21,159 bases of DNA from a virus (IMGVR_UViG_3300031566_000440:1-21159); one strand, 5' to 3'. Shown: positions 3,297-10,403, counted from the stretch's first letter. Made by a program: numbers and translations. The notes: generated from the letters alone by a model not told the origin.

Positions 3297-4004
3297 ATGC
3301 GAAATAGAATTTACTTTACAAAAGAGACGGAGAACGCGATTGTTGATCTTAACGAGTCAGATGATCAGATATTAAAATCAAAGATATACAGCGAGAAAAT
3401 AGAAAAGCCTTTAAACAGACTCGTTGAGAATATAATAAACCGATTTAAATTCCCGCACTTTAAAGATGCTTCAATAGATTTACAAGCAGATACTGTTTCA
3501 TTTCTTGTAATGCAGATGGACAAGTATCACCAAGAAAAGGGGCGTGCTTTTTCATATTTTTCTATTTTGGCGAAAAATTATTTAATACTTGGAAACAACG
3601 AACATTGGAAACTCAAGAAACAATCACATCGTATTGATACAAATGCCAGTGAACATGCATTTGATATTATAGATGAACTTCAAGACATTCGACAAAATGA
3701 TGAAACACCCGAATTTGTGAGGTTGATGTTAGCTTATTGGGAAAACAATTTAACCAACGTTTTTTCAAAACGACAAGAAATACAAATTGCTGATGCGGTT
3801 CTCACTTTATTTAGACGTTCCGTAAATATAGAAAACTTCAATAAAAAAGCACTCTATTTAATGATTCGTGAAATGACGGGTTTACGGACACAATATATTA
3901 CTGCAGTTGTAAATAAAATGCGAGTTCATAATGATATTCTTGTCAAGGAATATAATGCTATTGGATACTTTGACACTGAAATGTGTTTAGATGATTTTAC
4001 TTGA
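3297..4004 (+). CDS. gp55: gp55-like sigma factor for late transcription
   Basis: This 235-residue protein resembles the T4 gene 55 sigma family, especially the longer versions in marine T4-like phages. Recognisable parts are KPLNRLVENIINRFKFPHF (about residues 37-55), then FLVMQMDKYHQEKGRAFSYF and SILAKNYLI (about 70-98). These match the sigma region 2-like part that contacts the core polymerase clamp and the late promoter. T4 gp55 is 185 residues; the extra length is at the C-terminus. GGGAGA at 3283-3288 sets the start at ATG 3297; an ATG at 3293 is in another frame. It should direct host RNA polymerase to TATAAATA promoters, one of which leads this operon at 1913 and another lies at 20226. 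A highly structured non-coding stretch follows the stop. Confidence 0.85.
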   Translation: MRNRIYFTKETENAIVDLNESDDQILKSKIYSEKIEKPLNRLVENIINRFKFPHFKDASIDLQADTVSFLVMQMDKYHQEKGRAFSYFSILAKNYLILGNNEHWKLKKQSHRIDTNASEHAFDIIDELQDIRQNDETPEFVRLMLAYWENNLTNVFSKRQEIQIADAVLTLFRRSVNIENFNKKALYLMIREMTGLRTQYITAVVNKMRVHNDILVKEYNAIGYFDTEMCLDDFT

Positions 4005-4065
4005 GGAACTGGGGTAAACACTCCAAAGGTTATAAGTGGAAGTGCCGCCAAGTGGTTCACTTGGT

Positions 4066-4073
4066 AATAAATA
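4066..4073 (+). promoter_or_regulatory. Possible degenerate late promoter (AATAAATA)
   Basis: Seven of eight bases match TATAAATA. T4-type spacing puts the transcript start near 4079, at the foot of the third hairpin of the candidate small RNA. This is weak evidence in AT-rich DNA. Confidence 0.22.
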
Positions 4074-4114
4074 TTTTCATTTCGTTCTCCTACGGAATGG
4101 GTTAGAGAGAAAAG

Positions 4115-4145
4115 AGGTTGGTCTATTATAGGTCAACCTTTTTTT
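4115..4145 (+). terminator. Strong intrinsic terminator
   Basis: An 11-bp stem (4115-4125 with 4129-4139, two G-U wobbles) closes on the three-base loop TTA. It is followed by an unbroken T-run through 4145. It ends the HD-membrane-gp55 operon and the candidate small RNA. The purine-rich AAAAGAGG in front means it could also act on the opposite strand. Confidence 0.9.
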
Positions 4146-4191
4146 GTTTATCTATATTTATATGTGAGATAAAATACATTGGAGATTATCA

Positions 4192-4629
4192 GTGATTAAG
4201 TTAAAATCATTATTGAAAGAAGATTTACTTGGTGAGCTTAATGGGTATGAAGTATATAAAAATCCCAAATCTATTACAAGAATGGAAGACGACATAAGAG
4301 GGATAAGTTTTCCTGACGGAGATTTGTTTGTAGTAAATGATGCTCGGCATATATTACATCATGAATTATCTGGTTGGTTGATACGAAATGGTTATAGAGT
4401 ACCGGTAAATATAAATTTCAATCAAGGAATATTAGATGGTGTCAAAACAGGATATGTAACTTGGCAGAGAAGGAGTTCAAGTAATGAATTTTGGTTAGGT
4501 GAATCTATAAGTTTCAAGAATAAAAAGTATTTCAACAAGAAAGAACTTATACCGTATTTAGAAAAATGGGTGAAAAAGGTAAAATCAAAAAATTCACAAT
4601 ATAAATTTGTATTAGAAACAATAAGATAG
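4192..4629 (+). CDS. Putative internal head protein with capsid-targeting N-terminus (145 aa)
   Basis: Translation starts at GTG 4192, seven bases after TTGGAGA; there is no nearby in-frame ATG that keeps the N-terminus. The first ten residues, MIKLKSLLKE, share the pattern M-I-K-L-K-x-L-[L/I]-x-E with the products at 7981 and 8258. T4 internal proteins begin with a ten-residue capsid-targeting sequence (MKTYQEFIAE), cut by the prohead protease after [L/I]-x-E. Here LKE at residues 8-10 would be that site. The mature part contains RGISFPDGDLFVVND (about residues 36-50) followed by a histidine-rich HILHHELSGW, and a basic C-terminus. I do not recognise this domain. I infer packaging in the head with the DNA and delivery to the host; the function there is unknown. 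Confidence 0.75.
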   Translation: MIKLKSLLKEDLLGELNGYEVYKNPKSITRMEDDIRGISFPDGDLFVVNDARHILHHELSGWLIRNGYRVPVNINFNQGILDGVKTGYVTWQRRSSSNEFWLGESISFKNKKYFNKKELIPYLEKWVKKVKSKNSQYKFVLETIR

Positions 4630-4640
4630 AGAGGAGCGAT

Positions 4641-5078
4641 ATGTCCGAAGATAAAAAATTTTATGAGTTATTTCCAGACAAAACACTCAGCGATGTTTAT
4701 AAAAACATTTACGATAATTCTACAAAAACAAGGAATCAAATAACTGGTTTGATTGACCAATTAAAACCGTTTGTAAAGTCATTAGATTCGGCTGCCACGA
4801 TAGTACCGTTGATTCGTGAATACATGGAGATTTTAGTAAGGAACGACGAACACCTAATCAAGTTAGCAGATTCGGCGACAAGATTATTAAAAGAGGGTAG
4901 GGTTGGAACTGATGAAAGTGGTGGATTTTTAACTGAGGAAGAAAAAGAACAACTTCTCAAAGATGCTGAGGATTACAATGAATATGCAAAGATTGAAACA
5001 AAAAATAAGAAAACATTAGACGAGAAGGTTGAAGAAATTAAGGCAGAACTATTAGAAAACAATAAGGATATAAATTAA
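4641..5078 (+). CDS. Unrecognised helical protein in the structural cluster (145 aa)
   Basis: A strong GAGGAG site precedes the ATG. The protein looks wholly alpha-helical and acidic, with a charged coiled-coil C-terminal third (EEEKEQLLKDAEDYNEY, then EKVEEIKAELLEN). It has no signal peptide or membrane segment. Its stop overlaps the start of the spike/hub-like gene by one base (TAATG at 5076-5080), implying coupled translation. I infer a small virion or tail-assembly protein working with its neighbour, but the family is not one I recognise. Confidence 0.8.
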   Translation: MSEDKKFYELFPDKTLSDVYKNIYDNSTKTRNQITGLIDQLKPFVKSLDSAATIVPLIREYMEILVRNDEHLIKLADSATRLLKEGRVGTDESGGFLTEEEKEQLLKDAEDYNEYAKIETKNKKTLDEKVEEIKAELLENNKDIN

Positions 5079-6304
5079 TGGCTCATTCGCGAGATTTAAA
5101 TAGAGGGGCAGTACAATCATCAAATCAACAATTACTTGGATTAACAACCGTTAATTCAAATCCAGGTCGTGGAATAGGCGCACCACATTTTGAATTTTAT
5201 GAATTAGAAGCGGCTGAGGTACAAGATGTTATTCTTGATATAAATCATAAAGCGTCAAATGATGATTATCGTAATATTGGTAATGTACAAATACGAGCTG
5301 TAATTAGTGAAAATGGTAAAGAAAGATCAACTTTATCTTGGGCGAGACCATTAGATTCTAATATAAAGTCTTATCCATTGATTCACGAAGTTGTAATAAT
5401 TGTACAATATTTGGGTCAACTTTTTTATACACAACGAATGAATGCGTATAATAATCCAAATCAAAATGCTATACCTGGTATAAGTTTACCTTCTTTTTCA
5501 TCAAAAGAAGAAACCACTAAACCTGCGAATGCTCAAGATTTTGAATCTGTTAATGCGTCTGGAATACCAAATAAAAAAAATGATCAAGAAGATGTTTCAT
5601 TAGGAAAGGTATTTAAGCCGAATATAGATATAAAACCAATGAAACCTTTTGAAGGCGACATCATATATGAAGGTAGGTTTGGACATTCAATAAGATTTGG
5701 ATCGAATCAAGAGAATGGTTTACCTACATTTAAAATGAAAGTAGGACAACCTGATGAAGTGCCTGACACATCATTACAAACAATAGAGGAAAATATAAAC
5801 GATGATCCAAGTTCATTTTGGATAGTAAATGACGAGAATGTGCCGCTCATTCCAGCGACTGCCGAGAGTGAAGTACATTTACAATTTTATCCTGACAAAC
5901 CAAACGAATTTCTTAATAACCAAATATTTATAAATAGTGATAGAATAGTTCTCAATAGTAAAACACAAGAGATTATGGGATTCGCCAAAAAAGCAATGAA
6001 CTTTGTAACTGAGGGAATCTTTACTGTTGACGCGGTGGATGATATAATAACGAATACAACATCAAGAACGATATTAAATTCACCTGAAATATATTTAGGT
6101 GGGGAAGATGCTGAAGAAGCACTTGTATTGGGAAATACTTTATTAAATTTATTGAATGAGTTAATTGATTTGGTACTTAATCACAAACATCCAAGTGGAA
6201 CTGGGCCAACAGGACCTGTTGTTATTCCACCTGAGAATAGTCAATTGAATCAACTTAAAAGTAAGTTGGAAAGTGCTTTAAGTTCAAGAAACTTTACGTC
6301 ATAA
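5078..6304 (+). CDS. Baseplate spike/hub-like protein
   Basis: The 408-residue protein has an N-terminal part (about residues 30-130) that reads as an OB-fold-like beta barrel (QIRAVISENGKERSTLSWA). The motif GDIIYEGRFGHSIRFGS at about 193-209 recurs in central spike and baseplate hub proteins of tailed phages. The C-terminal third is beta-rich (INSDRIVLNSK, FTVDAVDDI, INTTSR-like strands, SPEIYLGG), then a helix and NHKHPSGTGPTGPV, a His-x-His-Pro/Gly-Pro pattern often seen in spikes. I infer the trimeric central spike or hub that punctures the outer membrane, equivalent in role to T4 gp5. No lysozyme domain like that of T4 gp5 is visible. The start overlaps the upstream stop. Confidence 0.65.
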   Translation: MAHSRDLNRGAVQSSNQQLLGLTTVNSNPGRGIGAPHFEFYELEAAEVQDVILDINHKASNDDYRNIGNVQIRAVISENGKERSTLSWARPLDSNIKSYPLIHEVVIIVQYLGQLFYTQRMNAYNNPNQNAIPGISLPSFSSKEETTKPANAQDFESVNASGIPNKKNDQEDVSLGKVFKPNIDIKPMKPFEGDIIYEGRFGHSIRFGSNQENGLPTFKMKVGQPDEVPDTSLQTIEENINDDPSSFWIVNDENVPLIPATAESEVHLQFYPDKPNEFLNNQIFINSDRIVLNSKTQEIMGFAKKAMNFVTEGIFTVDAVDDIITNTTSRTILNSPEIYLGGEDAEEALVLGNTLLNLLNELIDLVLNHKHPSGTGPTGPVVIPPENSQLNQLKSKLESALSSRNFTS

Positions 6305-6315
6305 AAAGGTAAATA

Positions 6316-6852
6316 ATGGCTATAGATTGGAAGACATTTAAACAAATGACAAAAAGTTACTTTAAAAGTATGGTTGCACGGAATGAACAAGAAGCGGCAG
6401 ATTTTATTACTACTCAATATATTTCTGCAATATTGACCGGTGGAGATTTGTCATATGGAAATATAGTTACACCGACGTATAATCAACAAGCCTTATCATT
6501 AGCGATAGGAAACGCTTTTATACAAGGTGCGACATTAGTAAATGAAGGACTTATTCCAACAATATTTGGAATAACGATTTCTCAAGGATTGATAGGATTT
6601 TGGACTGGTGCTCAATTATCGCTACTCGTTCCACCACCTGGTTCTGTTGTAGTGGTGTCGAATATTGTAAGTGTACCTGGAACGATAATTTCGGTGTTAA
6701 ATGTGAGTGCTACAGAAAACGAAAATGAGTTTGTAGATAATTTGGTAGATTTTTTTACACAACATCTACAAACGTTACAGGGTATTACGACGGCGATAGT
6801 TCCTGGTACGCCGCCAATCCCAACACCGTTCCCATGGCAGGGATACGGATAG
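6316..6852 (+). CDS. Unrecognised hydrophobic, glycine/proline-rich virion protein (178 aa)
   Basis: AAAAGGT precedes the ATG. After a charged N-terminus (DWKTFKQMTKSYFKSMVARN) most of the protein is hydrophobic and small-residue rich. Examples are GLIPTIFGITISQGLIGFW (about residues 75-93) and SVVVVSNIVSVPGTIISVL (about 105-125). It ends in a proline-rich tail, PGTPPIPTPFPWQGYG. The hydrophobic stretches could be membrane-inserting or a tightly packed beta core. Placement between the spike-like gene and gp25 suggests a baseplate or tail component. I do not recognise the family. Confidence 0.8.
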   Translation: MAIDWKTFKQMTKSYFKSMVARNEQEAADFITTQYISAILTGGDLSYGNIVTPTYNQQALSLAIGNAFIQGATLVNEGLIPTIFGITISQGLIGFWTGAQLSLLVPPPGSVVVVSNIVSVPGTIISVLNVSATENENEFVDNLVDFFTQHLQTLQGITTAIVPGTPPIPTPFPWQGYG

Positions 6853-6865
6853 GAAGGAGTAAAAT

Positions 6866-7540
6866 ATGACAAAAAAAGAATTACAAGAAATAATAACTAT
6901 TGCTATTCGAACGGTAGTACAAAAAGAAATCAAACCTTTAATAGAAGCAACGATTAGAAAAGAATTTTACAAGATTCTCAACGAAGCGGAAACGGCAGCG
7001 AAACCGAAAAGGACAATAATGGTCGAAGACGACGACAACACATCACTTTTGAGTTTAATAGAGGAAGATATAGATAGTGATCCGGCGAGAGCTCAAATAA
7101 ACGAAAAGATTTTCAAGGGTAAAACACCATTTGCGGATGTATTGAATCAAACAGCGGATGCCGTAAAAAATAGAACTGGTATTTATGCTAACCCATTGAA
7201 ACAAACGGGCAGTCAAGTAAAAATGAAATTAAATAACGATGGACTTGCTACAACGGCACCAATTGATGCTCAAATGTCTACTCGAACATACAACCGTAGT
7301 GAAATGGCTGCCAAGATAGGATATGGTGATATGCCAAAAATAGGTGTAGATAATAAGGTGAAAAACATTATAGCAAAAGATCCAACATCAGCACCATTGA
7401 ATGAGATAGAACTTCCAACGACGAATGCTGACGGCAAACCAATAAATTATGCGAATGTTCCACAAGATATAGTAAAAAATATGATGAAAAATTATAGTGG
7501 TCTTTTAAAAAAGGTAGAATCTAAGGTAATGAGACCGTAA
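6866..7540 (+). CDS. Unrecognised structural-cluster protein with helical N-terminus (224 aa)
   Basis: A strong GGAAGGAG site precedes the ATG. The N-terminal 50 residues form an amphipathic, probably coiled-coil helix (IAIRTVVQKEIKPLIEATI). An acidic patch (VEDDDN, EEDIDSDPAR, about 52-75) and a low-hydrophobicity, probably extended remainder rich in Asn, Thr and Lys follow. SLLSLIEED holds an L-I-E triplet that would fit a T4-type prohead protease site, but such triplets are common. The make-up resembles a scaffold, chaperone or linker more than an enzyme. The next gene, gp25, starts ten bases after its stop. Function unknown. Confidence 0.8.
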   Translation: MTKKELQEIITIAIRTVVQKEIKPLIEATIRKEFYKILNEAETAAKPKRTIMVEDDDNTSLLSLIEEDIDSDPARAQINEKIFKGKTPFADVLNQTADAVKNRTGIYANPLKQTGSQVKMKLNNDGLATTAPIDAQMSTRTYNRSEMAAKIGYGDMPKIGVDNKVKNIIAKDPTSAPLNEIELPTTNADGKPINYANVPQDIVKNMMKNYSGLLKKVESKVMRP

Positions 7541-7550
7541 GGGAAGATAA

Positions 7551-7937
7551 ATGACACAACCAATAGGAGTAAAAGTGCCCATTCGGATGGGCAGCACCGG
7601 ATTTTTTGATCAGACATTTTCGTCAATAGATGAAGCTAAATCAAATATGATAAATCTTCTATTGACGAGAAAAGGCGAAAGACCAATGCAACCTGATTTT
7701 GGCACAAAAATATACAACTATTTATTTGACCAACTTACGGGCGACTTGGCGAATAGGATAGAACAAGAGATACAATCAGCAGTAGATACTTGGTTACCTT
7801 ATGTCGAGTTGATAGATGTTAATGTAGATGCCAGTCCGACGAATATGGATAGGAATAGAATTGATGTAAATATTAGATTTGGATTACGACGAAATATAAG
7901 AGAACAAGAAGAAATAGTAATAACATATGTAATTTAA
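7551..7937 (+). CDS. gp25: Baseplate wedge protein gp25 (GPW/gp25 family)
   Basis: At 128 residues this is typical of the GPW/gp25 family (T4 gp25 is 132). LLTRKGERPMQPDFGTKI at about residues 37-54 contains the family's signature, with the conserved E-R-P of GERPMQPDFG. A helix (NRIEQEIQSAVDTWLPYVEL) and a two-strand end with IDVNIRF follow. gp25 is the sheath-initiator-like wedge component at the tube/sheath base of contractile tails and related secretion systems. Having gp6 a few hundred bases downstream is the usual arrangement in myoviruses. The ribosome site is GGGAAG. Confidence 0.95.
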   Translation: MTQPIGVKVPIRMGSTGFFDQTFSSIDEAKSNMINLLLTRKGERPMQPDFGTKIYNYLFDQLTGDLANRIEQEIQSAVDTWLPYVELIDVNVDASPTNMDRNRIDVNIRFGLRRNIREQEEIVITYVI

Positions 7938-7947
7938 AGGAGATAAA

Positions 7948-7977
7948 ATGAAACGATCTGAATTAATTAGGAGATAA
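7948..7977 (+). CDS. Nine-codon mini-ORF, possible remnant of a capsid-targeting cassette
   Basis: A near-perfect AAAGGAGAT site (7937-7944) precedes ATG 7948, and the frame MKRSELIRR stops at TAA 7975. The last codons (AGG AGA) themselves form the ribosome site for the gene at 7981. The peptide resembles the start of a capsid-targeting leader (M-K-x-x-x-L-I-x) but lacks the closing glutamate. It is either a translated leader that couples gp25 to 7981 or the stub of a lost internal-protein gene. Confidence 0.35.
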   Translation: MKRSELIRR

Positions 7978-7980
7978 CAA

Positions 7981-8244
7981 ATGATTAAGTTGAAACAACT
8001 TATTAAAGAAGAAATCAATGTTGTAAATACTGCGAATTATTTTGCACAAAAACTCTATGATTTATTAAGAGATGAAAAACCCATATTTGCATTTAATAAA
8101 TTTGAAAGAGAATTATCTACATTAAATTTATCTGACGAACAAATAAAACAGGTAAGTAAAAAATTATGGAATAGTAAAGGAAATATGAATTTAAATCGTC
8201 TTAAACAATTGACTCGACAAGAGTTAATTAAAATTTTATCATAA
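7981..8244 (+). CDS. Putative internal head protein with capsid-targeting N-terminus (87 aa)
   Basis: The first ten residues, MIKLKQLIKE, match the leaders of the products at 4192 and 8258 and end in I-K-E, a T4-type prohead protease site. The predicted mature part is 77 residues, basic and helical (NTANYFAQKLYDLLRDEKP, then LSDEQIKQVSKKLW), with no motif I recognise. The ribosome site AGGAGA (7969-7974) lies inside the mini-ORF just upstream. The gene sits between gp25 and gp6, among late virion genes, so it should be made during head assembly. Internal proteins of T4 are small, basic and abundant in the same way. The role after injection is unknown. Confidence 0.75.
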   Translation: MIKLKQLIKEEINVVNTANYFAQKLYDLLRDEKPIFAFNKFERELSTLNLSDEQIKQVSKKLWNSKGNMNLNRLKQLTRQELIKILS

Positions 8245-8257
8245 AAGGAATTAAGAA

Positions 8258-8482
8258 ATGATTAAATTAAAACAATTATTAGAAGAACTTCGAAAAATTA
8301 TAAATGAAAGAACGGGAGAAGAACACCCAGATCCGAAAGTAAGTGAACTTATAAAAAAATTTAACAAGACGGGTAGAACAGCGTTTACGTATCCTAAAAA
8401 AAAGATGATAAATGTTAATGGTCGGGGAATGTCAGAAAAGAAAGCTATAGAATATATGAAAAATGTTATTAAGGAAAAATAA
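8258..8482 (+). CDS. Putative internal head protein with capsid-targeting N-terminus (74 aa)
   Basis: The leader MIKLKQLLEE has the same ten-residue pattern as 7981 and 4192 and ends in L-E-E. A further L-R-K-I-I-N-E segment could carry a second cut. The mature part is small and very basic (KKFNKTGRTAFTYPKKK, then GMSEKKAIEYMKNVIKEK). It has a short predicted beta hairpin (TAFTYPKKKMINVNGRG) between helices, which could bind DNA or protein. AAAGGA lies eight bases before the ATG. Tandem with 7981 at 13 bases distance; the shared leader differs mainly at third codon positions, so the similarity is held at protein level rather than being a fresh copy. Confidence 0.75.
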   Translation: MIKLKQLLEELRKIINERTGEEHPDPKVSELIKKFNKTGRTAFTYPKKKMINVNGRGMSEKKAIEYMKNVIKEK

Positions 8483-8495
8483 TTGGAGAAAATAA

Positions 8496-10403
8496 ATGGC
8501 TAATACAAGTAAAGAGATTAGATATTTAGGTCGGGATTTTAATGATTTTAGAAATAATCTCATAAATTTCGCCAAAGTATACTTCCCAACTGTGTATAAA
8601 AATTTTAATGAATCTAGTGTGGGAATGATGTTTATTGAAATGGCGTCTTATGTTGGCGATACATTGAGTTATTACATTGATTCGTCTCTAAAGGAAAGTT
8701 TACTCTTGTACGCTGAAGAAGAGCAAAACATTTATGCTCTTGCTCAAACACTTGGGTATACTCCAGCATTAATTGTTCCCGCTACAACTCAACTTGATAT
8801 TTATCACATAGTTCCGGCCGTGGGTAGTGGTACATCAGTTACTCCTGATTGGAGTTATGCTTTAATTGTGAATGCTGGTATGCAGGTTGCAAGTAAAACC
8901 GATTCAAATGTAATTTTTAGAACATTAGAAGATGTTAATTTTGCTAATTCTTCAAGTAGTGATCCAACGAAAGAAAATTATACAAATGCTACGGTTTGGG
9001 AAACTGATGATAGTGGAAATCCTACTTTTTTTGTGCTCAAAAAAACAACTCAGGTTGCAGCGGGTGAAATAAAGACGGTTGGGTTTAGTTTTAGTTCACC
9101 AACTCGGTTTGAAAAAAAGGTAATATCTGATACTGATGTTGTTCAAATACTTGATGCTACTGATTCTGATGCCAATACTTGGTATCATGTACCTTATCTT
9201 GCTCAAGACACAATATTTACTGATCTTAGAAATGTTGCTGCATATGATAAGGATTTAGCACAATACAACGACACGGCGCCATATTTATTAAAACTCAAGA
9301 AGTCTGCTCGTCGCTTCACATCGCGGATTCGTGGCGACAAAAAGACAGAAATACAGTTTGGTGCTGGTATTTCTGATAATCCTGACCAATTATTAATTCC
9401 AAATCCGACAAACATTGGGTCAACTTTATTTGGATCTGTAACATTTACTGATACACCGATTGATCCAGCAAACTTTTTACATACAAAAACTTATGGACAA
9501 GCACCAACGGACACAACTATTACTGTAAGGTATGTAGTTGGCGGTGGTTTATCATCAAATGTAAATCAAGATGAATTAACACAAATAAAGGATGTAACAT
9601 TTACGATTGACGACGATGATTTAAATGCTGCTACATTAGCACAAGTAAAAAACTCGATTGCTTGTAATAATTCTGAAGCAGCTACGGGTGGTCGTGATGG
9701 AGAGAGTGTTGAGGAAGTAAGAATGAATGCTTTAGCTAATTTTCCAACACAACTTCGTGCAGTAACGAAAGAGGATTACATTACAAGGGCATACTCAATG
9801 CCGGCGAGATATGGACGAGTAGCGAAAGCATACATTATGCAGGATGATCAACTCAGTCAATCGCCTGATTGCAAAGATTTAGTAGGTAATAACACGAGAA
9901 TTCCCAACCCACTCGCTTTAAATTTATATTTATTGGGATATGATAAAAATGGAAAACTTACACCATTAAGTTGTGCGATTAAAGAAAACTTGAAAGTATA
10001 TCTTGGTCAATATAGAATATTAACCGACGCGATAAACATTAAGAATGGGTTTATTGTAAATGTTGCAGTGAAATTTTCTATTATTGCTTTTAAAAATTAT
10101 AATAAAAAAGAAGTTTTATTAAGATGTATTGAGAGGATTAAGGGATTTTTTAAAACAGACAATTGGCAATTTAATCAACCAATTATTCTTGCGGATATTC
10201 AAACTGAGCTTTTCAAAGTTGAAGGGGTGCAAGCAGTTGTTAATACTGAAGTGGAAAATAGGTGGTTAACTGCTAATGGATATTCTGGAAATATATATAA
10301 TATTCAAGAGGCGACAAAAGATGGAATAGTATATCCAAGTCTTGATCCTTGTATATTTGAGTTGAAATATCCAAATAAAGACATTGAAGGGAGGGCATTA
10401 TAA
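8496..10403 (+). CDS. gp6: Baseplate wedge protein gp6-like
   Basis: The 635-residue protein is close to T4 gp6 (660) in length and starts with the family's pattern. IRYLGRDFNDFRNNLINFAK is followed by FNESSVGMMFIEMASYVGD and then SLLLYAEEEQNIYALAQTLGY (about residues 8-90). The central region has AATGGRDGESVEEVRMNALANF and VTKEDYITRAYSMPARYGRV (about 395-445), the stretch shared with gpJ/gp6-type wedge proteins. gp6 joins the wedges into the ring that surrounds the hub and carries the tail fibres. The position downstream of gp25 supports this. The stop overlaps the next start by one base (TAATG). The ribosome site is TTGGAGA. Confidence 0.9.
   Translation: MANTSKEIRYLGRDFNDFRNNLINFAKVYFPTVYKNFNESSVGMMFIEMASYVGDTLSYYIDSSLKESLLLYAEEEQNIYALAQTLGYTPALIVPATTQLDIYHIVPAVGSGTSVTPDWSYALIVNAGMQVASKTDSNVIFRTLEDVNFANSSSSDPTKENYTNATVWETDDSGNPTFFVLKKTTQVAAGEIKTVGFSFSSPTRFEKKVISDTDVVQILDATDSDANTWYHVPYLAQDTIFTDLRNVAAYDKDLAQYNDTAPYLLKLKKSARRFTSRIRGDKKTEIQFGAGISDNPDQLLIPNPTNIGSTLFGSVTFTDTPIDPANFLHTKTYGQAPTDTTITVRYVVGGGLSSNVNQDELTQIKDVTFTIDDDDLNAATLAQVKNSIACNNSEAATGGRDGESVEEVRMNALANFPTQLRAVTKEDYITRAYSMPARYGRVAKAYIMQDDQLSQSPDCKDLVGNNTRIPNPLALNLYLLGYDKNGKLTPLSCAIKENLKVYLGQYRILTDAINIKNGFIVNVAVKFSIIAFKNYNKKEVLLRCIERIKGFFKTDNWQFNQPIILADIQTELFKVEGVQAVVNTEVENRWLTANGYSGNIYNIQEATKDGIVYPSLDPCIFELKYPNKDIEGRAL

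Follow-up and report, generated by a model that had tools for sequence, protein, structure and literature searches.

Why do three small genes in the tail region of a phage begin with the same ten residues and then go separate ways? The question arises in a 21,159-base virus record from IMG/VR, a fragment of an uncultured T4-like phage, which we call the window, meaning this whole stretch of DNA. Three of its open reading frames (ORFs), listed below, encode proteins with this common leader. The best explanation, and one that we regard as probable from comparison of sequences, is that the ten residues would act as a propeptide of the type carried by T4 internal proteins, the capsid-targeting sequence (CTS) that is cut by the protease gp21.

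4192..4629, + strand: leader gene 1, GTG start, 145 residues; leader MIKLKSLLKE (codons 1-10, 4192-4221); mature part 135 residues, isoelectric point (pI) 9.5
7981..8244, + strand: leader gene 2, 87 residues; leader MIKLKQLIKE (7981-8010); mature part 77 residues, pI 9.6
8258..8482, + strand: leader gene 3, 74 residues; leader MIKLKQLLEE (8258-8287); mature part 64 residues, pI 10.1

All three ORFs are preceded by a Shine-Dalgarno-like GGAG/AGGA sequence. Compared pairwise, the leaders agree at 7, 7 and 8 of their 10 residues, whereas only 1, 0 and 1 of the next 20 residues are identical, which confirms the statement in a preliminary description of this DNA that the products share a start and then diverge. 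The K and L residues held in common are encoded variously (AAG/AAA and TTA/TTG/CTT). Thus, it is the protein that is conserved and not a repeat in the DNA, and a DNA-level repeat was dropped as the cause of the common leader. The mature parts are small and basic, as had also been described, with masses of 7.5-15.9 kDa and pI values of 9.5-10.1; most other proteins of the window are acidic. An ortholog of the 4192 product in G001/L006 (MANIKLKDLLKED...) is 59% identical and keeps the leader.

The position of the motif is far from random. We defined the motif class as [KR][LIF][KRQN]x[LIF][LIVF]xE within four residues of the initiating Met. It begins 3 of the 21 window genes and is found at no internal position in 6,204 window residues. 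In a set of 346 deduplicated genes, comprising the window and relatives recruited through the baseplate gene gp6, the motif occurs at 25 N-termini and once internally in 86,952 residues (0.02 expected). Permuting the columns of the motif, which keeps its composition, gave a mean of 0.3; only 3 of 3000 permutations equaled the observed count, and the top-scoring permuted motifs were near-equivalents of the real one. The leader begins 0-4 residues after Met, and the spacing L-x-x-L-[LI]-x-E is retained throughout.

Searching IMG/VR with a degenerate DNA pattern for M-K-L-K-x-L-[ILFM]-K-E gave at least 120 stretches, versus 77 in all for a permuted control motif. Among the matches listed, 46 of 125 were ORFs with a Shine-Dalgarno sequence and had many different bodies. 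For comparison, 17 of the 77 control matches were such ORFs, and at least 12 of these belonged to one homologous family. Grouping 160 leader ORFs, again among the matches listed, by their mature parts yields 80 unrelated clusters. We found no paper describing such a leader in the open-licence literature, searching by the leader letters and for CTSs in cyanophages.

Residues 4 and 7 of the CTS of T4 IPIII are needed for targeting, and residues 8 and 10 for cutting (PMC9026906). The window leaders carry L4, L7, L/I8 and E10 in all three cases. The CTS-like character claimed in the preliminary description is supported by the spacing and by these four residues; the residue after the site, to which we return below, departs from T4-type sites. 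Scanning the T4 genome with a pattern made for T4 finds MKTYQEFIAE encoded at two places.

The end of the leader also resembles the site at which the major capsid protein (MCP) is processed. When MCPs of cultured relatives and of leader-bearing contigs are aligned to T4 gp23, the residues [LI][LIV]xE fall at the cut after E65 and are followed by A, S or V (LISE/A, LVSE/V, LIDE/A, LIKE/S, IVSE/A, LLDE/A, LVVE/S and LLNE/S, with a slash at the cut position). The site in the MCP of one relative, G006, reads QLIKE/S, the ending of the leader itself. Relatives of gp21 in the phages immuto and Mel-JY01 carry [LI][LI]xE/S near their N-termini (GLLTE/S, KIIKE/S), and a conserved L/I-x-E at the C-terminal end of the catalytic domain follows the same rule. 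The MCP N-terminus resembles the leader as well: a hydrophobic-x-x-[LI][LIF] core is present in 8 of 9 gp21-bearing relatives, versus 84 of 682 background ORFs (12%). Examples from the clade are MSDIKSLLSE (G007) and VKSLLTN; the core is missing in the distant G035, in T4 and in S-SM1.

These similarities suggest how such proteins might reach the head. The leader proteins would be made from the tail operon during late infection, and the leader would dock onto the prohead core by its hydrophobic face (positions 4, 7 and 8), perhaps at a site shared with the MCP N-terminus (IKSLLSE, VKSLLTN and similar in relatives). Given that MCPs of relatives carry a matching [LI][LIV]xE site, a gp21-type protease would then cut after E10. 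As in T4, the small basic mature protein would stay with the DNA and leave the head with it at infection. Different leader proteins would thus be alternative cargo, and comparison of relatives shows that the slots flanking gp6 hold different, horizontally exchanged genes.

The slot that holds leader genes 2 and 3 lies between two baseplate genes, as follows.

7551..7937, + strand: gp25-like baseplate wedge protein (PHROG 261, 8e-24; Pfam GPW_gp25, 4e-15); an anchor gene, outside the leader family
7938..8495, + strand: putative cargo slot between gp25 and gp6, with different leader genes in relatives and none in distant ones
7948..7977, + strand: mini-ORF MKRSELIRR*, with its own Shine-Dalgarno sequence
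8496..10403, + strand: gp6-like baseplate wedge protein (PHROG 219/6, ~1e-17); an anchor gene

We collected every ORF of at least 50 residues in the gp25-gp6 slot and in the slot between gp6 and the next gene, for ten relatives and the window, making no selection by motif. With a slightly looser pattern, 30 of these 35 ORFs begin with the leader. The same slots carry other leader genes in other relatives, and gp25 and gp6 are adjacent in distant ones. At the DNA level, gene 7981 is 93.9% identical to its copy in L346, whereas the preceding gp25 is 65.4% and the following gp6 72.9% identical. Because the leader gene is far more alike than the genes that flank it, the putative cargo appears to move by horizontal exchange. 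Misassembly of L346 could produce the same pattern but is unlikely, since the divergence is bounded by genes at both sides.

The mini-ORF is possibly the stub of a second type of leader, to judge from its residues and from MRKSELRQIIKEE, which occupies this slot in L009. Separately, ORFs at 7630-7956 of L006 and 1155-1415 of L346, which lie between homologues of the window genes at 5078 and 6316, have unrelated bodies and a different common start, xxWNKIFRxNKLxEGK. This start ends in L-x-E/G and is perhaps a second leader class.

Relatives with head genes allow the location of leader genes to be compared with that of the head cassette. A gp21-type protease is present in Mel-JY01, immuto, G006 and G007 and in the leader-bearing G017, G025, G026 and G030; in the cultured Mel-JY01 and immuto, terminase, portal, gp21, gp22 and gp23 follow one another as in T4. 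Eight records contain gp21 together with the MCP, and their 682 ORFs include nine strict leader genes. Of these nine, 8 are no more than 6 kb from the TerL-gp23 cassette, versus 195 of the 682 ORFs (29%; hypergeometric p = 3e-4). One leader gene of G017 directly adjoins gp21, and one of G030 lies between gp22 and gp21.

The position of these last two genes, in the interval from gp21 to gp22, speaks for an alternative in which the leader does direct the proteins into the prohead core, where it is cut off, but they serve as structural components of the core or help in assembly (like gp67, gp68 or IPIII) instead of being injected effectors. IPIII itself affects head assembly (PMC9026906). We nonetheless consider this alternative unlikely: the leader genes are not conserved among close relatives and their slots hold swapped genes, so that dispensable cargo fits better than assembly factors.

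Evidence at the protein level comes from the marine Synechococcus phage S-SM1, whose virion proteome comprises 41 proteins by mass spectrometry, and T4-GC190 was detected in purified virions (PMC3037559). The gene for this protein, SSM1_190, encodes a cytidyltransferase that begins MKKFSAFLNE/A and is the only annotated full-length S-SM1 gene with a strict leader. It lies far from the tail genes, and its orthologs in Syn9, P-SSM4 and S-ShM2 retain the leader. The detection of T4-GC190 in virions supports the capsid-targeting interpretation, although it does not prove it.

The second alternative, that the leader is a docking signal for the tail or baseplate, for example for the lumen of the tube, draws on the presence of leader genes in the tail operon of this clade, among gp25, gp6 and further tail genes. 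Contractile injection systems, moreover, load cargo via N-terminal signals. Yet the same leader type lies near head genes in other relatives, it copies the head-protease site of the MCP, and the S-SM1 cytidyltransferase is a virion protein despite its distance from tail genes, all of which make docking to the tail very improbable. That the common start has no role in the protein, being a favourable AT-rich translation start or a short patch of homology that aids gene swapping, is likewise very improbable even though the first codons are rich in AAA and ATT, the leader genes are exchanged and amphipathic K/E-rich N-termini are also found on unrelated conserved proteins, because permuting the motif columns abolishes the excess, residues are kept while codons vary, and the spacing is preserved at each offset after Met.

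Several observations weigh against a capsid-targeting role. The residues that follow E10 are D, E and L in the products of 4192, 7981 and 8258, where T4-type sites usually have A or S, and two slot genes of L006 end in LLE/V and LVE/G, one residue short. Among leader records of at least 40 kb, 8 of 19 yielded gp21 versus 3 of 21 control records, which is a trend only, and strict leaders are not enriched within the head cassette itself (p = 0.38). The window leader genes sit in a tail operon away from head genes. The late virion setting assigned to them earlier is correct in that their neighbors are virion genes, encoding baseplate (tail) proteins such as gp25 and gp6. Head genes and a head protease are both absent from the 21-kb window; nor was a head cassette found in G001, a 161-kb, incomplete close relative. 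The S-SM1 link falls short of proof because it concerns one protein from another phage family. Finally, amphipathic leader-like N-termini occur on TerL in G030 and on the protein family of window gene 6866, both of which are unlikely to be internal proteins, so the broad pattern evidently gives false positives.

The only match to family S77 in G001, a 136-residue ORF (C1:132144-132554, L054), was rejected as a head protease, being away from any head gene. It is a short S77-family paralogue that belongs to no head cassette.

In line with the preliminary description, the three mature parts from the window gave no convincing match in Pfam or PHROGs and none to a known anti-defence family, and the 4192 product had no match in phage records. 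When 74 cluster representatives were scanned with PADLOC, the result was a single marginal Csm2 match; few of the representatives match named families, cytidyltransferases being among those that do. A predicted structure for the 4192 product, built from a two-row alignment, had a mean predicted local distance difference test (pLDDT) score of 37.7 and was set aside. The 7981 product was predicted to be all-helical, with four helices and a pLDDT of 78, and comparison of this model with the PDB and with viral structures gave nothing better than an E value of 0.7.

The nearest known systems are the T4 internal proteins IPI, IPII and IPIII and Alt. They likewise carry a ten-residue leader on otherwise different small basic proteins, with hydrophobic residues at 4 and 7, I/L at 8 and E at 10, and the relatives of the window have T4-type head genes and gp21. 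However, the core of the leader is LKxLL here and YQEFI in T4, and the present genes occupy tail-operon slots and encode many more unrelated types of putative cargo. T4-GC190 has the same leader layout on a virion-detected protein, but is a single conserved enzyme of the Kyanoviridae and not swapped cargo. Ejection proteins of the giant phages phiKZ and SPN3US are also packaged in the head and have N-terminal propeptides that the prohead protease cuts after x-E; those propeptides, however, mostly exceed 100 residues and use other motifs (A/S-x-E). In SPN3US, gp53 and gp54 share an identical 15-residue start (PMC5694885). The principle is already known; what is new is the form of the leader, the slots in the tail operon, the wide variety of putative cargo and its swapping from one backbone to another.

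Leader-like starts were also encountered in three further places. A 54-residue ORF beside the T4 primase gene (NC_000866, ~19130-18966, - strand; L275:1366-1530 -) has the CTS-like start MKTFKEFIKED. PSSM2_115 (T4-GC111) of P-SSM2, at NC_006883 100269-100529, starts MKSFKQFLEE and adjoins a gene annotated as a virion structural protein. The uncultured 484-kb phage LR756508 has four MK[LF]KxL[IL]xE starts, at 182802, 263330, 299011 and 334044, so that huge phages may also carry this type of leader.

It is possible, and we propose it tentatively, that this large and mostly uncultured T4-like group has an open cargo system, in which any gene that gains a ten-residue leader mimicking the start and the processing site of the MCP is packaged and injected, and in which the slots beside gp6 allow swapping and give each phage its own set of effectors. 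The mature proteins would probably counter host defences or reprogram the host. Injected proteins do their work as infection begins; those of T4 comprise, among others, a restriction-enzyme inhibitor and an enzyme that modifies RNA polymerase. Should the leader indeed signal packaging, candidate injected proteins could be picked from genomes of uncultured phages by a simple rule on the N-terminus, with at least 80 unrelated mature clusters, most of them lacking a known family. This rule would also provide a direct, testable search for new counter-defence proteins, and the leaders could be used to load proteins into non-T4 heads.

The surroundings of the leader genes are those of a T4-type tail cassette, with gp25 at 7551, gp6 at 8496 and a weak match to a baseplate protein at 5078. 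Relatives of gp6 number 41 in IMG/VR, in addition to those of Mel-JY01 and immuto. A scan of genome contigs found no gp6 relative, and therefore no host is inferred. No phage record matched 3900-8500 in a distant blastn comparison, and the T4 late-promoter motif TATAAATA has no + strand copy immediately 5' of the leader genes. Leader gene 1 may be the first gene of a late operon downstream of the following hairpin, which lies directly upstream of it.

4109..4145, + strand: terminator-like hairpin followed by a T run (RNA fold z = -3.9)

The gene at 6866-7540, which is conserved before gp25, has a start (MTKKELQEII; KKLIKEAV in immuto) that resembles the leader; the gene may encode a genuine internal protein or else be a false positive. 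At the far left of the window, a tRNA-Gly (GCC) at 97-170 overlaps the start of a predicted ORF.

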